Of a stretch of DNA of 44,144 nucleotides, positions 23,244 through 30,186 are shown piece by piece; within the stretch, counting starts at the first letter, position 1, and the number at the start of each line of letters is the position of its first letter. The DNA is from an uncultured Pseudomonadota bacterium. GTDB taxonomy: Bacteria > Myxococcota_A > Bradymonadia > Bradymonadales > Bradymonadaceae. The stretch is from positions 1 to 44,144 of the forward strand of contig CATLTV010000020.1 in NCBI GenBank assembly GCA_950059285.1. Direction: 5' to 3'. A program made the position numbers and the translations under genes. The notes under the pieces are model-generated. The model had not been told where the DNA came from, made no database searches, and saw only the letters and a list, made by a program, of their open reading frames with translations.

Positions 23244-25538
23244 TTATTTCAGGAACTTAAACCGCACACCAACAGCCCTCAAATCCGTCATCAAACCAGG
23301 ATAACTCTTTGCAGAAACCCAGGGTGATACAAGCTTGACCGAACCTCCAAATGCAGCGATCAAACCTGCCATTGCAAGCCTGTGATCATGAAGCGTTGGC
23401 CAGATACCATCCCCAACAACCTGACGTCCCACGGGCACATACAATCCATCATCACGTGCCTCTACCTTCACGCCAACCTGCGCATACGCCCCCACGAGAT
23501 CTTCAATACGATTGCTCTCCTTGAGCCTCAAATGCGCAGCGTTCACAATTTCAAGACCCGCCTCACAATGGATCGCCACGGCGCTCAACACAGGCGCCAG
23601 ATCAGGCGCGTCATTCAAATCCACGGTGTACACGCTGGCGCTATCCTTGACCTCCTGAAAACCTGCAAGAATATCAACCAGGCGCCGATCAACCTGCCGA
23701 CTTGACGCTGGCATCTGGCTCAAACGCACATCCGCACCAAGAAAGTTTGCCGCTCTCCAGAACGCCGCAGAGCTCTCATCGGGCCAGACCACAAGCTCAC
23801 TCACATCAGAACATTCCCCTTGTTTTAGAGTCACTTTGCCGCGTTCAAAATCAGCATCAACAACCACACCAACATCTTCCAACATGCCAAGTGTCATGTG
23901 CAAATAATCCACTGACACCATCTTTGCAGGATCAAATGAACCATCCTCCGAGGTGACAAGATCAAGCCTCACATCGTGACCTGACACCGCCAACATCGCC
24001 AACGCAGAGGCATACTGCGAGCTTGTGGCAATATCCACGCTGAACTGCAACACATCAGGAAGCTCAACAGGTGGTGTCACACGCATGCACCCTGGCACGG
24101 TGACATCTACCAGAGCCCCCACGCTCTCCAACGCCTTGACCAGCGCATCATGAGGTCGCTCCAAAAGACGCTGCTCCGCCACAATCTCGACGGGAGCAGC
24201 ATGCACAAGCGCAGCAACCATCAGAAAACGAAGCGTAGTACCGCCAAGGCCAGCCTCCACAACGCACGCACAACCACGACTTTTCTCAAGCTTTTCCAGT
24301 GACTTCGCAAGATAAAACACATCATCAGGAAGATGACTTGTACTCACACCCGACGAAAGCTCAACCTGCACATGCCCCTGACCTAACGCTGCCATCATCA
24401 GCGCACGATTGTACTCGGACTTACTGACAGGCAGACGCACAAATCCTGTGTTTCTGGCCTGCGACCAGTCCACCTCATACACGCCCTGCTGATACTCATC
24501 ATACACGTCACACAACGTGTCATACCACATCTCACCCGACACAGAGGTCACAACCTCGGGCTGTGCAGCCCCCTGGAGAAGCACGCTCCTCAACTGATTA
24601 TTGATACGCTTTTTATCCTTACGAACCAGTGAGATAAACCGCTCTCGATCGATTTTCGAAGGACTAAACTGGAGCGGTTCTAGCAAGGGCTCAAGATGTG
24701 CTAACCAGCGCGTGCTCTCTGCCACAGACATGCCAGACAGGGTTACGGATAACTTTGCAGCAGCGGCCATTCCCCATGCCACGGCGAGCCCATGTGGAGC
24801 GCCCATCTCAAGCTCAAGCGCATGTGCTGCGGTGTGCCCAAGGTTGAGGATCGTACGTATCCCCCTGGTCTCAAAAGGATCTTCTTGCACCACACGCTTC
24901 TTGACCCGGATCGCCTGCTCAAGCAACGTCATCAATGTATCACCCACCTGGTCAAATGGGGCAAAGGCGAGCGCCTCGACGCTGATGTCATCGAGAAGAA
25001 GGAGCGCGTTGGCGTCGCCAAGCCAGAGCCCTTTGATTAACTCGGTCAGCCCATGGCGACGTTGCTCAAGCGGAAGCGCACCAAGAATATCTTTTACAAT
25101 CAATACCTTATCGGCAGGATAAAATGTACCAAGTTGATTCTTCGCACTGTGCAAATTCACTGCCGTTTTACCGCCATGAGCCGAATCCACCATCGCCAGC
25201 AATGTGGTCGGCACATGCCATAAATCCACACCTCGCCAGAGCGTGCTGGCAAGAAAACCCACAGCATCTCCCACAGAGCCACCACCCACAGCGACCAGCG
25301 TCAGTGGACGACTTGATTGAATCTCAAGCACACCCGAGGCAAGCATCTCCAGACCAGTCAGCTTCTTGAGCTGCTCACCAGCCTTCACAAAAAGTGTGCG
25401 CTGTTTGGGGAACACACCTGTGATGGAAGAGGGCAAGTCTTCGTCCACAATAAACACCGCGTGCTCGGGCCAGACGACCTCATCAAGCCGTCCACACATC
25501 ACCAACTCTTCCTGCCCACGCGCCTCTGATCCTGCCAT
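23244..25538 (-). CDS. aroBA: Bifunctional 3-dehydroquinate synthase / EPSP synthase (AroB-AroA fusion)
   Basis: A 764-residue two-domain shikimate-pathway protein. Residues 1-340 are AroB: GGGSVGD (85-91), HVPTTLLAMVDSAHGGKTAVN (108-128), metal ligands Glu166 (TELIKG), His235 (NLGHTAAHALE) and His249 (APHGLAVAWGM), and the KDKK segment. Residues 355-764 are AroA: LPVSKSEYNRAL (Lys373, substrate binding), GGTTLRFL, LLERPHDALVKALESVGA, DIATSSQYASALAM, DLNDAPDLAPVLSAVAI (catalytic Asp), LRLKESNRI (catalytic Glu), LHDHRLAMAG and SAKSYPGL. Both active sites look intact. The two steps are not consecutive in the pathway. The AroB-AroA order is that of the first two domains of the fungal AROM polypeptide. 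No other aro gene is nearby. Confidence 0.9.
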   Translation of the reverse strand: MAGSEARGQEELVMCGRLDEVVWPEHAVFIVDEDLPSSITGVFPKQRTLFVKAGEQLKKLTGLEMLASGVLEIQSSRPLTLVAVGGGSVGDAVGFLASTLWRGVDLWHVPTTLLAMVDSAHGGKTAVNLHSAKNQLGTFYPADKVLIVKDILGALPLEQRRHGLTELIKGLWLGDANALLLLDDISVEALAFAPFDQVGDTLMTLLEQAIRVKKRVVQEDPFETRGIRTILNLGHTAAHALELEMGAPHGLAVAWGMAAAAKLSVTLSGMSVAESTRWLAHLEPLLEPLQFSPSKIDRERFISLVRKDKKRINNQLRSVLLQGAAQPEVVTSVSGEMWYDTLCDVYDEYQQGVYEVDWSQARNTGFVRLPVSKSEYNRALMMAALGQGHVQVELSSGVSTSHLPDDVFYLAKSLEKLEKSRGCACVVEAGLGGTTLRFLMVAALVHAAPVEIVAEQRLLERPHDALVKALESVGALVDVTVPGCMRVTPPVELPDVLQFSVDIATSSQYASALAMLAVSGHDVRLDLVTSEDGSFDPAKMVSVDYLHMTLGMLEDVGVVVDADFERGKVTLKQGECSDVSELVVWPDESSAAFWRAANFLGADVRLSQMPASSRQVDRRLVDILAGFQEVKDSASVYTVDLNDAPDLAPVLSAVAIHCEAGLEIVNAAHLRLKESNRIEDLVGAYAQVGVKVEARDDGLYVPVGRQVVGDGIWPTLHDHRLAMAGLIAAFGGSVKLVSPWVSAKSYPGLMTDLRAVGVRFKFLK

Positions 25539-25715
25539 GTTGTACTCTCTTTATGTTGAGCTAATAAATCACGCTACAGCGGTCAAATATCGCCATCAGC
25601 ACGGATTGACAAGGATATTTAAAAGCCGAGCAACGCTCGCAGAGAACTATTTTTTGTCTGCCCCCTACTGGGTGCTATATTGTTGCACATGACAACGTCA
25701 AAGGGTCTGTTTCCC

Positions 25716-25722
25716 AAGGAGG
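25716..25722 (+). promoter_or_regulatory. Perfect ribosome binding site for the micro-ORF
   Basis: AAGGAGG is followed by TTC-ATG-GTG. The in-frame ATG is 3 nt away and the GTG is 6 nt away, so the GTG at 25729 may be the used start. It is one of the best Shine-Dalgarno matches in the window and has no other ORF to serve. Confidence 0.65.
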
Positions 25723-25725
25723 TTC

Positions 25726-25830
25726 ATGGTGTGGCGTCTCATAAAGTTGATACACAAGCTCTGGAGAGCCGTACTCTGGGCCTATCGCATTCTAAAGTGG
25801 ATCTGGCGTCGCATTGGCAGGAGCGCATAA
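25726..25830 (+). CDS. 34-codon cationic Trp-rich amphipathic peptide, coupled to cardiolipin synthase
   Basis: A short ORF (34 residues from ATG 25726, or 33 from GTG 25729) with stop TAA at 25828. Composition is striking: five Trp, nine Arg/Lys, one His and no acidic residue. The basic residues fall at 4, 7, 11, 14, 21, 24, 28 and 32 and the Trp/Leu/Ile residues between them, so a helix would be sharply amphipathic. Sample: RLIKLIHKLWRAV. The cls start codon is 3 nt after its stop, and the cls Shine-Dalgarno (AGGAG at 25819-25823) lies inside it, so translation is probably coupled. Likely roles are a membrane-surface microprotein acting with cardiolipin synthase, or a leader peptide. Function unproven. 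Confidence 0.6.
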   Translation: MVWRLIKLIHKLWRAVLWAYRILKWIWRRIGRSA

Positions 25831-25833
25831 ATC

Positions 25834-27381
25834 ATGCTCCATGAACTGACAGTCCACCTTCCATTTTTGCAGGGCCTCTCTCTTCTCACCGTATTGAACT
25901 GGGCAGGCTTTTTCTTTGCGCTTGCGTTCATCCCGAGCATCTTGCTGCAACGCAGTGATCGCCCCATGTCCGCGCTGGCCTGGATTCTCTGCCTGATCGA
26001 ACTTCCTTTTGTGGGGATTTTGTTCTGGTGGATCTTTGGCTTACGTCATCTCAGGAGACGACGCAGAAAACGCCGCAAGGCAATGAGTGAGATCGACATC
26101 AGGCTACGACAACAACGTGAACAGCTTGACTCACTGGTGCTCCCCGCAGAAGAGAGCGAACGCCTTACACTTGGCCCAATACAGGCAGATACATCAACGC
26201 AAACCTCCGATGAATTTGCCCTCCAAGTTGTCAACTTCTTCGACATCGACGCAGGTATTTTCCCAAGCTCATCCAACAACCACATCAAGGCGTACACCAA
26301 TGGTGTGGATGCGTTCAAAGCGTTTGAGGATGCCATCAAGGAAGCCAAGGATCATGTCCACTTTGAGTTCTACATCTGGGAGGACGACGAGACAGGGCAT
26401 CGTTTTCGCGACCTGTTGATCGAATGCGCACAACGTGGCGTGGAAGTACGCGCGCTATACGACGCAATTGGAGGTTCGCGCGTCAACGGCAAATTCATGA
26501 AAAAGCTCAAGAAAGCAGGTGGACAAGCTGCCCCCTTCTTGCCCGTCACACTGCTTGAGCGAAGACTTCGTATCAACTTCAGAAACCACCGTAAAATCAT
26601 TGTTATCGATGGCAAGGTCGCCTTCACTGGTGGGATTAATATCGCCGATGAATACACCAACTGGCACGACACAGCCTTTCGTTTTGAAGGCCCCGTGGTC
26701 TATCAGTTTCAGGAGGTCTTTGCCGAGGACTGGTACTTTGCCACAAACCAGGACATCGTCGACTCCAGATACTTTCCACCCATCTCGTCGGACACGCTCC
26801 CACAACACCGAGACACCACCGAACAGGGCGCGCATACACGCGTGCTTGCCAGTGGACCAGACATGCGCGCCCAGGCCATTCACAAGGCATTCTTCATTGC
26901 CATGACGCAGGCCACATCAAGGGTCTGGTTCCTGACACCCTACTTCATCCCCGATGAGGCAATCTTGATGGCGATCGAGACCGCCGCCATGCGTGGCGTC
27001 GATGTGCGCATCATCCTCCCTGGAAAGGGAGCCACCGATGTCTTCGTCACCTACTGGGCAGGACGCTCCTTCTACGAGCGCCTCCTTGATGCTGGCGTAC
27101 ACATTTATGAGTTCAAGGGACGCATCCTGCACGCCAAGAACCTCATCCTTGATGATAAATGGTCCTTTGTAGGTAGCTCAAACATGGATATTCGTAGCTT
27201 CCGCCTGAACTTTGAAACCAACTGCATCATTGAGGATGAAAAACTCAACGAACGCTTAAGCCAGTTCTTTGAGGACTCACTTGAGGAATGCGAAAAGGTC
27301 AGCCTTGAGCCGTTTGTCAACAGACCCAACTCGGAGCGCCTCCTGGAATCCACCGTTCGACTCTTTAGTCCACTGATGTAA
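25834..27381 (+). CDS. cls: Cardiolipin synthase (phospholipase D family)
   Basis: A 515-residue membrane enzyme that makes cardiolipin from phosphatidylglycerol. Two N-terminal membrane helices (about 20-38 and 48-70) are followed by a very basic juxtamembrane stretch (RHLRRRRRKRRK). Two PLD catalytic motifs then occur: HRKIIVIDGKVAFTGG (His252, Lys254, Asp259) and HAKNLILDDKWSFVGSSN (His433, Lys435, Asp440). TPYFIPDE and the SFRLNFETN segment are typical of bacterial Cls. Length is about 30 residues above the usual 480. It is translated directly after the micro-ORF. Neighbours on both sides are envelope genes. Confidence 0.93.
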   Translation: MLHELTVHLPFLQGLSLLTVLNWAGFFFALAFIPSILLQRSDRPMSALAWILCLIELPFVGILFWWIFGLRHLRRRRRKRRKAMSEIDIRLRQQREQLDSLVLPAEESERLTLGPIQADTSTQTSDEFALQVVNFFDIDAGIFPSSSNNHIKAYTNGVDAFKAFEDAIKEAKDHVHFEFYIWEDDETGHRFRDLLIECAQRGVEVRALYDAIGGSRVNGKFMKKLKKAGGQAAPFLPVTLLERRLRINFRNHRKIIVIDGKVAFTGGINIADEYTNWHDTAFRFEGPVVYQFQEVFAEDWYFATNQDIVDSRYFPPISSDTLPQHRDTTEQGAHTRVLASGPDMRAQAIHKAFFIAMTQATSRVWFLTPYFIPDEAILMAIETAAMRGVDVRIILPGKGATDVFVTYWAGRSFYERLLDAGVHIYEFKGRILHAKNLILDDKWSFVGSSNMDIRSFRLNFETNCIIEDEKLNERLSQFFEDSLEECEKVSLEPFVNRPNSERLLESTVRLFSPLM

Positions 27382-27497: not shown

Positions 27498-28862
27498 ATG
27501 GAGCAAACCTTGAAACAAAAACTCTATATACTCGTTATTGTTAGTATAATTGCAATCATACACACAGGTTGTGCACAGCAGTGCGCACAACTCAACCAGA
27601 ACTACGAGCAGGCGCTCACCCAGGAAAGCCAGCTTGCCGAAGGCCAGACATTGGGCGCTGGAATGCCCACACACATGGGAGTCGCGCTGCGCTTTGACCT
27701 CGTACGTGATGTGGCAAGAACACTACTGGTCAAGACCCTGAGCCAGAAGCTTGACCTCTCAAGCAACATCAACATTGGCTCGGGCAAAAACATCCCCGTG
27801 GAGCTCTCCAGCGACGCACTCAACATCGGCTTTGAACCCGACACCGCCTGTGAAACCTGCTTCAGAATCACAGGTGATCTTGGCGGTGATGCATCGGTCA
27901 AAATCCCACTCATTGGCACCAAGAAAATCCCCCTCAAGGGCGCGTTCAAGATGATCGCCCCCATTCAGTTTGAGTCCAGCGAGGACAACACCGTCAAGGT
28001 GCGCCTCGACCCGAGCAAAATCTCGGAATACAGCCAGTCCTTCCTTGATCTTGAACTGCCTGGCCTCCCCGAAGCGATTGGCCGCGCGCTCAAGCAGCCC
28101 CTCACCAACCAGCTCTTTGCCAAGCTCACCTCGCGGCTCAAGCCCATCGATTTGTTTGCATTCAAAGCCCCCGAGTTTGGTATCAAGGGCATCAAGCTCT
28201 TCCCTTCACAGCTGACGTTGATGCCCAAGCAAAAAGCCATCTTCCTTGGCTTCACCAGTAATATCCCTGGCGTGGCCGCTGGACAGGGCTTAAACGCCGA
28301 GAAAGCGATTGCATTTGGCGAGAACGAGAATATGGCTGTAGCAATCCAGCCAAGGCTGATTAAAGGGCTTGTGACGATCCTGATGCAACAAGACGTCATC
28401 CCAAGGCGCTACTCCATGCAAGGCCAGTCCAACCCACAGGGGCCAGCACACGTGACCCTGAATCAGGTCATGTTTGCCTCTGCCTCGGACGCACCCGTGG
28501 CAGGCGATCCGCTCAACATCGGCTTCCGAGCATGGAATCTGTTTGGAGAAAGCGGCGGCCCATGCTTCTGGTTTGATGCGCTGGTCAAGGGCGTGGTCTC
28601 ACTCAAGGACAGAAAGCTTCTTGTCAACTTTGAACAGGTCGAGCTCGTCAACGCCTCTATCGCCCCACAGCTCGTTCAAGGCCTGGCAAACTGGAAGGGC
28701 GCCGAGTTCTTGAACAAGACTCGCACCCTGATTGAAACCACGCTCTCCGAGCCCCAGATCACGGTCCCAGGCGGTGGTAAGCTCACGCTCGCGCCAAGCA
28801 CGCTTGACCGCGACAACACCACCATCGCGCTCCGCAGCCTTGTGACCTTCAAGGCAAACTAA
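27498..28862 (+). CDS. Large uncharacterised lipoprotein, possibly a lipid-binding (TULIP-like) fold
   Basis: A 454-residue protein with a lipoprotein signal (hydrophobic ILVIVSIIAIIHTG|C25). The mature sequence is dominated by beta strands with amphipathic alternation and a few helices. It includes IPVELSSDALNIGFEP, a CETC pair, KKIPLKGAFKMIAPIQFE, QSFLDLELPGLPEAIGRALKQ and a second half with similar long strands. A long alternating beta-barrel with Leu/Pro-rich helices suggests a BPI/TULIP-type lipid-binding fold, but I do not recognise the family and this is only inference. It follows the cardiolipin synthase gene by 116 bp, which fits a role in lipid handling. It ends 16 nt before a strong palindrome. 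Confidence 0.55.
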   Translation: MEQTLKQKLYILVIVSIIAIIHTGCAQQCAQLNQNYEQALTQESQLAEGQTLGAGMPTHMGVALRFDLVRDVARTLLVKTLSQKLDLSSNINIGSGKNIPVELSSDALNIGFEPDTACETCFRITGDLGGDASVKIPLIGTKKIPLKGAFKMIAPIQFESSEDNTVKVRLDPSKISEYSQSFLDLELPGLPEAIGRALKQPLTNQLFAKLTSRLKPIDLFAFKAPEFGIKGIKLFPSQLTLMPKQKAIFLGFTSNIPGVAAGQGLNAEKAIAFGENENMAVAIQPRLIKGLVTILMQQDVIPRRYSMQGQSNPQGPAHVTLNQVMFASASDAPVAGDPLNIGFRAWNLFGESGGPCFWFDALVKGVVSLKDRKLLVNFEQVELVNASIAPQLVQGLANWKGAEFLNKTRTLIETTLSEPQITVPGGGKLTLAPSTLDRDNTTIALRSLVTFKAN

Positions 28863-28947: not shown

Positions 28948-30186
28948 ATGTCCGAGACATACACTGCCCAACAAGCCGCCAACCTGCTCGGTATTCATCG
29001 AAAGAGCCTCTATGCCTACGTCAGCCGAGGATTAATCAAGGCCTACGACACGCCAGGCCGAAGTAAGCTGTATGATGCCGATGATATCAAGCGGCTCCAA
29101 CAGGCAAAACAAGGCAAGAACCAGCCACACAAGGTCGCAAAGCAGGCGCTCTCATGGCATGGCTACCCCGTGTTGCACACCGAAGTCAGCCGAATTGACT
29201 CACAACAACTGTACTATCGCACACACGCCATTGATGAGTTGACCTCACGACTTGATACCTCATTTGAACATGTCACGGCGCTGTTATGGCACCCCCACAA
29301 CCCAGATTATTGTGTGCAATTCCAGGGCGAAAAACTGGAAAATTTGCACACTCTGAAGGACGCTCTCCCCAAAGATTTACCACCCCTCAAGCGCGCCCAG
29401 ATCTACTGGAGTTTGGCCGAGCATGAGGATATGATCGCCTATAACCTCGATCCCGAACATGTTGCACATACAGGTGAATTCATCATTCATCTCGGGCTAT
29501 CTGCCGTGGAGCACAGCCTCTCGCCTGATGAGTTTCAAATCCCTGCATCCTCCATCACACACCACAACATGAGCTCTGCATCCTCCAGACTTGCACGAAG
29601 CCTCTCCATGGAGTCGCACAGCCACCTGCTCGACCTCGCCATGATCCTGTGCGCTGAACATGAGCTCAACGCCTCGACCTTTGCCGCGCGAGTCGCAGCA
29701 TCCACACGCGCATCGCCCTATTCGGTCTGCCTCGCAGGGCTCTCCACTGTGCTTGGACAGCACCACGCAGGCACCACATTGCGCATTGGTGTCTGGCTTG
29801 ATGAACTGCTACGCGCACGCAGCATCAAACAGGGCATCGCACAACGCATGCGCCGAGGAGAATCATGGCCTGGCCTTGGGCACAAGCTCTACTCGCAGGG
29901 CGATCCCCGCGCCAAGATCCTCTGGGAAGCCATTCAAAAAGGGCTCCCAAACGATCTCTGGGAACCCTACAGAAACATACTTCAAGAGATTGAAAAAATT
30001 AAGGAACTCGGAAAACCATCCATCGACCTCATGCTGGTCATCATGATCCGAGCACTTGATGGTTGCGACGAAGACGCACTGACCATCTTTGCGCTCTCAA
30101 GGTGCGTGGGCTGGATCGCACACGCCATGGAACAATACAATGAACCTGGTATTATTCGACCTCGCGCAGCGTTCAAACACGGATAA
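28948..30186 (+). CDS. Citrate synthase family protein with N-terminal HTH domain
   Basis: A 412-residue protein. Residues 1-55 are an excisionase/MerR-like winged helix-turn-helix (YTAQQAANLLGIHRKSLYAYVSRGLIKAY...SKLYDADDIKRL). The remainder is a citrate synthase fold: HELNASTFAARVAAST (catalytic His238), the HHAGTT loop (His273, usually HGGA), GLGHKLYSQGDPRAK (catalytic His312), SIDLML (catalytic Asp360) and RCVGWIAHAMEQ. The three catalytic residues are therefore kept, so it may still condense acetyl-CoA (or another acyl-CoA) with an oxoacid. HTH-citrate synthases form a known bacterial subfamily without a fixed role. There is no Shine-Dalgarno, and the palindrome upstream leaves a 9-nt leader. 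It is convergent with the methyltransferase. Confidence 0.85.
   Translation: MSETYTAQQAANLLGIHRKSLYAYVSRGLIKAYDTPGRSKLYDADDIKRLQQAKQGKNQPHKVAKQALSWHGYPVLHTEVSRIDSQQLYYRTHAIDELTSRLDTSFEHVTALLWHPHNPDYCVQFQGEKLENLHTLKDALPKDLPPLKRAQIYWSLAEHEDMIAYNLDPEHVAHTGEFIIHLGLSAVEHSLSPDEFQIPASSITHHNMSSASSRLARSLSMESHSHLLDLAMILCAEHELNASTFAARVAASTRASPYSVCLAGLSTVLGQHHAGTTLRIGVWLDELLRARSIKQGIAQRMRRGESWPGLGHKLYSQGDPRAKILWEAIQKGLPNDLWEPYRNILQEIEKIKELGKPSIDLMLVIMIRALDGCDEDALTIFALSRCVGWIAHAMEQYNEPGIIRPRAAFKHG

Follow-up and report, generated by a model that had tools for sequence, protein, structure and literature searches.

The window, that is, the whole 44,144-nt stretch of DNA analyzed here, carries a short open reading frame (the microORF) immediately 5′ of the cardiolipin synthase gene cls. 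The features around it are as follows.

23244 to 25538, − strand: aroB-aroA fusion (aroBA), divergent from the microORF/cls unit
25654 to 25681, + strand: promoter-like site TTGTCT-16-TATATT with TG before the −10 element (extended −10), a consensus match only
25716 to 25723, + strand: Shine-Dalgarno (SD) sequence AAGGAGGT, 8-nt class
25726 to 25830, + strand: microORF, 34 codons from ATG or 33 from GTG 25729, net charge about +9
25731 to 25844, + strand: rival ORF of 37 codons in another frame, sharing the same SD, from GTG 25731, with the product MASHKVDTQALESRTLGLSHSKVDLASHWQERINHAP
25819 to 25840, + strand: ribosome-binding site AGGAG and start codon of cls in a predicted hairpin (GGAGCG/UGCUCC, about −8 kcal/mol)
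25834 to 27381, + strand: cls, cardiolipin synthase of 515 aa (TIGR04265, PLDc_N, two HKD motifs)
27498 to 28862, + strand: p454, probable lipoprotein of 454 aa, 3′ of cls and on the same strand here

The cls product matches TIGR04265 with 394 bits (cut-off, 290) and contains PLDc_N and two PLDc/HKD regions, as a regular cardiolipin synthase does. It is the only Cls match in the genome, which is represented by an assembly of 441 contigs with 95% completeness. The product of p454 has no match in Pfam or NCBIfam. In the aroBA fusion, AroB (dehydroquinate synthase) and AroA (EPSP synthase) are joined in one 764-aa protein. The product of the gene at 28948 to 30186 (+ strand) joins a MerR/HTH_17 DNA-binding domain, at its N-terminus, to a citrate synthase domain.

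The microORF extends from ATG 25726 to the TAA codon at 25828–25830, and its translation is MVWRLIKLIHKLWRAVLWAYRILKWIWRRIGRSA. The initial annotation had described a 34-codon ORF with five Trp, nine Arg or Lys and no acidic residue behind a perfect AAGGAGG. The sequence and the translation agree with this composition, and AAGGAGG(T) is found at 25716–25723. The 8-nt SD class is the rarest and best one in the organism's own genome, being found at only 9 of 9765 small ORFs and 1 of 472 long ORFs in 844 kb, and it is stronger than the 5-nt SD of cls. The position of the start codon should be noted. The aligned SD spacing to ATG 25726 is 2 nt, which is poor and too close given the usual spacing of 3–8 nt in this genome, whereas the spacing to GTG 25729, codon 2 in the same frame, is 5 nt. 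GTG 25729 is thus the better-spaced start, giving a 33-residue peptide. The out-of-frame GTG 25731 is 7 nt from the same SD. The rival ORF starting there has a stop overlapping the cls start and lacks amphipathicity. Its codon score is slightly better than that of the microORF (−0.065 and −0.121 per codon, respectively). Ranked by synonymous codon score, the microORF stands at the 9th percentile among 34-codon pieces of genes and at the 63rd among intergenic small ORFs; its codon usage is non-coding-like, and neither of the overlapping frames is favored by codon usage.

The promoter-like site, which is about 45 nt 5′ of the microORF, shows 9 of 12 consensus matches, where 0.4 such sites are expected in shuffled sequences. 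This candidate promoter, a weak prediction, would place the transcript start near 25688, with the microORF as the first ORF and cls as the second.

The arrangement at the cls start is as the initial annotation had it. The cls ATG (25834) lies 3 nt past the microORF stop (TAA-ATC-ATG), and the cls ribosome site, AGGAG at 25819–25823, is located inside the microORF, the two genes sharing one reading frame. This layout, in which the stop codon is as near the downstream start as in a coupled leader, suits the claimed translational coupling, and so would the predicted hairpin. In the hairpin, the cls SD pairs with GCUCC in codons 2–3 of cls, so that the start codon is enclosed. The hairpin is weakly predicted, since 22 of 200 shuffled sequences are as stable and the z values are −1.3 and −0.4 in two frames of reference, and its stability is not significant. 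Apart from this local element, a structured leader RNA was rejected (the 211-nt fold is no stabler than shuffled sequences; z, 0.31), and the leader matches no Rfam family. A tryptophan-attenuation leader was ruled out by reasoning, as the microORF contains no consecutive Trp codons and there is no link to cls.

To evaluate the composition and amphipathicity of the peptide, 844 kb of its own genome served as the background for small ORFs. Acid-free small ORFs with at least four Trp and at least seven Arg or Lys number 19 of 9765 (about 0.2%); such a composition arises by accident and proves little alone. The hydrophobic moment was calculated as the mean Eisenberg moment of the best 27 residues at 97–106 degrees for ORFs of 27–60 codons. 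The microORF gives 0.79, ranking first among 6704 small ORFs, and among the 32 ORFs of this length with an SD of at least 7 nt, the next value is 0.50. None of 12,739 ORFs simulated with a third-order Markov model reaches the moment of the microORF, and permutations of its own residues give p values of 0.0012–0.0025. The amphipathicity and the SD are more than chance, though the ranks overstate the significance somewhat because the microORF had been picked for exactly these traits and the comparison is partly post hoc. The second highest 27-residue moment in the 844 kb belongs to a 54-codon basic amphipathic small ORF with a weak SD, found on L072 from 17106 onward (+ strand; MMKTAKGSTRVLAARLKRLVGRLAPRS...).

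The peptide was proposed to have one basic helix face and one aromatic/aliphatic face. The helical wheel is good in this respect, but Trp3, Trp18, and Trp25 fall on the basic side at 100 degrees. The best-fit helical period is about 103–105 degrees, which is heptad-like. Lys or Arg occupies residues 7, 14, 21, and 28, and the peptide contains four heptads, RLIKLIH KLWRAVL WAYRILK WIWRRIG, with Lys or Arg at every fourth position and Ile, Val, or Leu at every sixth (heptad-lag property match, p = 0.005). An origin of the heptads from tandem 21-nt units is unsupported, the units matching at only 6–10 of 21 bases. The threshold of Heliquest-type discriminants for lipid binding is about 1.3. The peptide scores 1.6–2.1 in each 18-residue window, within the range for lipid-binding helices. 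AlphaFold2, run with the single sequence, predicts one helix over residues 3–33 with a mean pLDDT of 79.5. By prediction and statistics only, the peptide forms one amphipathic helix with too much charge for a membrane-spanning segment.

A six-frame search of 26 genomes from the order, 57 from the class, and 379 from the phylum found no homologue of the peptide. The same search of its own genome and of plasmids gave chance matches only, and the peptide has no match in PDB, Pfam, or NCBIfam; judging from these databases, it belongs to no described family. GTDB contigs queried with cls yielded one distant Cls only. The initial annotation had itself named the lack of a similar ORF upstream of cls in relatives as the observation that would speak against it. 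Upstream of 12 Cls genes of the family, 7 family paralogues, and 15 Cls genes from elsewhere in the class, about 34 in all, no ORF is found that is comparable in being short, in having a strong SD, and in coding for a basic amphipathic peptide. On this comparative evidence, the microORF does not appear as a conserved Cls partner; the searches leave a lineage-specific gene or an accident, and if it is a gene, it appears to be young or fast-evolving.

This negative result is weaker than it looks, because cls is inverted here and its 5′ region is probably not the DNA found in relatives. In nine relatives (L005, L006, L007, L009, L010, L013, L014, L015, and L017), aroBA lies directly 3′ of cls on the same strand, with a gap within tens of bases in several of them (2 nt in L007). 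The aroBA genes 3′ of the relatives' cls are either a fusion or two parts in tandem. The p454 gene adjoins cls in at least seven relatives, and in seven it is divergent and 5′ of cls. In the window, the order is aroBA(−) cls(+) p454(+), in which the outer genes keep their relative order and cls alone is reversed. The gene order suggests that cls was inverted in place in this lineage. Since cls alone is flipped between the same neighbors, the microORF would lie in a lineage-specific 5′ region, and its absence from relatives is not enough to call it meaningless. Neither at the DNA level nor in translation does this region resemble the intergenic DNA of the relatives, and its origin as a remnant of a relative's gene was rejected, again for want of similarity at either level. 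Inverted repeats flanking cls, which could explain either a flip or a mis-assembly, were not found outside cls. The reversed order may result from mis-assembly, but both joints are in intergenic DNA within one 44-kb contig.

Known systems resemble the microORF in separate respects. SpoVM of Bacillus subtilis is a 26-residue amphipathic helix that senses curvature in sporulation (PMC4307972). The microORF peptide is likewise predicted to be a very short single amphipathic helix with no transmembrane segment, expected from the model to lie flat on an anionic membrane, but it is richer in Trp and Arg, and SpoVM is not encoded beside cls; the likeness proposed concerns the kind of helix. In Escherichia coli, clsC clones with the adjacent ymdB yield more ClsC by an unknown mechanism (PMC8027125). 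This is the nearest precedent for a neighbor raising the output of a PLD-type cardiolipin synthase, though YmdB is a macrodomain protein and not a helical peptide, with no homology to the microORF product. In Salmonella, the small ORF mgtQ, located between mgtC and mgtB, uses RNA structure to promote translation of mgtB (PMC8092293). The microORF, too, is short and directly precedes the gene of a membrane protein, whose start is predicted to sit in RNA structure, whereas mgtQ works via acidic, ribosome-destabilizing residues, which the microORF lacks. No known small protein partnering Cls and no leader ORF of cls came up in the literature that was searched. Functional orphan membrane peptides are plausible, because selections from random sequence in E. 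coli yield them, as in the cases of Arp1–3 (PMC6550523) and Dcr (PMC7790251), short orphan peptides that are functional at the membrane at once. These are laboratory selections, and the Arp peptides are hydrophobic and membrane-inserted, whereas the microORF peptide is modeled as a cationic surface helix.

The microORF is probably a real gene. The explanation that we favor, at slightly under an even chance, is that it is translated into an amphipathic microprotein that is specific to this lineage and coupled to cls. The inversion of cls between aroBA and p454 would have produced a new aroBA-cls region; the order is observed and the event is deduced from it. The promoter-like site of this region and the strong SD would start translation of a peptide of 33–34 residues, which is predicted to fold as one cationic amphipathic helix and would bind the anionic lipids PG and CL, lying on the cytoplasmic side of the inner membrane. 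Ribosomes ending the microORF would open the hairpinned cls start and reinitiate there, because the microORF stop is 3 nt away and the cls SD lies inside the microORF in a weak hairpin. The peptide and Cls would be made together through this reinitiation. The top rank in moment, the SD of at least 7 nt, the absence of an equal among the simulated ORFs, the permutation and heptad p values, the discriminant, and the single predicted helix argue for this explanation. The well-placed promoter-like site and SD, the operon layout with a good cls gene, the hairpinned cls SD, and the inverted cls order are also consistent with it. It has to be set against the non-coding-like codon usage, the lack of homologues and of anything similar upstream of the other cls genes, and an SD that is 2 nt from the ATG and serves the out-of-frame GTG as well as the in-frame one. 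The hairpin and promoter predictions are weak, and the ORF was pre-selected by its reader.

The same layout may be read without any role for the peptide. If the microORF is a translated leader ORF only, it opens the cls start and sets cls expression, and its peptide sequence is irrelevant. The stronger SD of the microORF (8 nt, against 5 nt for cls), the cls SD and start within the predicted hairpin, the stop 3 nt ahead of the cls start codon, and the precedent of mgtQ (PMC8092293) all agree with such a leader, yet it leaves unexplained why the most amphipathic small ORF in 844 kb, with zero acidic residues, should be found at this place; we regard it as somewhat unlikely, if a serious alternative. 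Accident, which we hold to be unlikely, goes a step further: the frame is untranslated, or the SD serves the ORF from GTG 25731, and the Trp/Arg-rich frame is a by-product of the local sequence. The non-coding-like codon score, the slightly better score of the rival frame, an SD spacing that suits GTG 25731 as much as GTG 25729, the missing homologues, and the chance occurrence of acid-free, Trp/Arg-rich products in about 0.2% of small ORFs speak for this. The joint extremity of amphipathicity and SD, the moment that no simulated ORF reaches, and the promoter-like site together with the gene layout speak against it.

The remaining alternatives concern what the product would do. A net charge of about +9 and a Trp/Arg-rich amphipathic helix resemble many antimicrobial peptides, and random-sequence peptides insert in bacterial membranes and lower their potential (PMC6550523). 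The product could accordingly be a membrane-active peptide of the cell's own making, akin to a type I toxin or an antimicrobial peptide and kept under control by cls co-expression or low translation. No signal peptide, antisense RNA, or antitoxin feature is seen, however, no toxin family in Pfam or NCBIfam is matched, and constant expression from a strong SD would do harm; this alternative is very unlikely. The microORF and cls are in one frame with a single stop between them, and hence read-through of the TAA, or a stop that is an assembly error, would give Cls a basic N-terminal extension. Adjacent ORFs share a frame by chance in one of three cases, cls has its own SD, and in relatives Cls begins at the corresponding position and lacks the extension, which makes this the least credible case, hardly to be expected.

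Returning to the coupled microprotein, the initial annotation holds up in the short ORF, the strong SD, the amphipathicity, and the coupling layout, but not in the functional link to Cls. Its proposal of a peptide that senses or presents lipid, or of an assembly partner of Cls, was drawn from position and finds no direct support here. That the peptide would alter how active Cls is, or where it is placed, is guesswork based on their co-expression. The fuller scenario, in which a gene born de novo with the cls inversion encodes a co-translated microprotein that binds the lipid that Cls makes or uses and adjusts or positions the enzyme, is improbable.

If the microORF is translated, it would encode a microprotein that annotation has missed and whose helical character can be detected by statistics on a single genome. 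Its young neighborhood, with the inverted cls, would then make it a case for the birth of membrane-peptide genes beside lipid-synthesis genes. Should the scenario of a de novo partner prove true, it would be, to our knowledge, the first case of a PLD-type cardiolipin synthase with a helical microprotein as its dedicated partner. If the peptide affects Cls, the finding would bear on how neighboring genes raise cardiolipin-synthase output, as in the ymdB-clsC case (PMC8027125).
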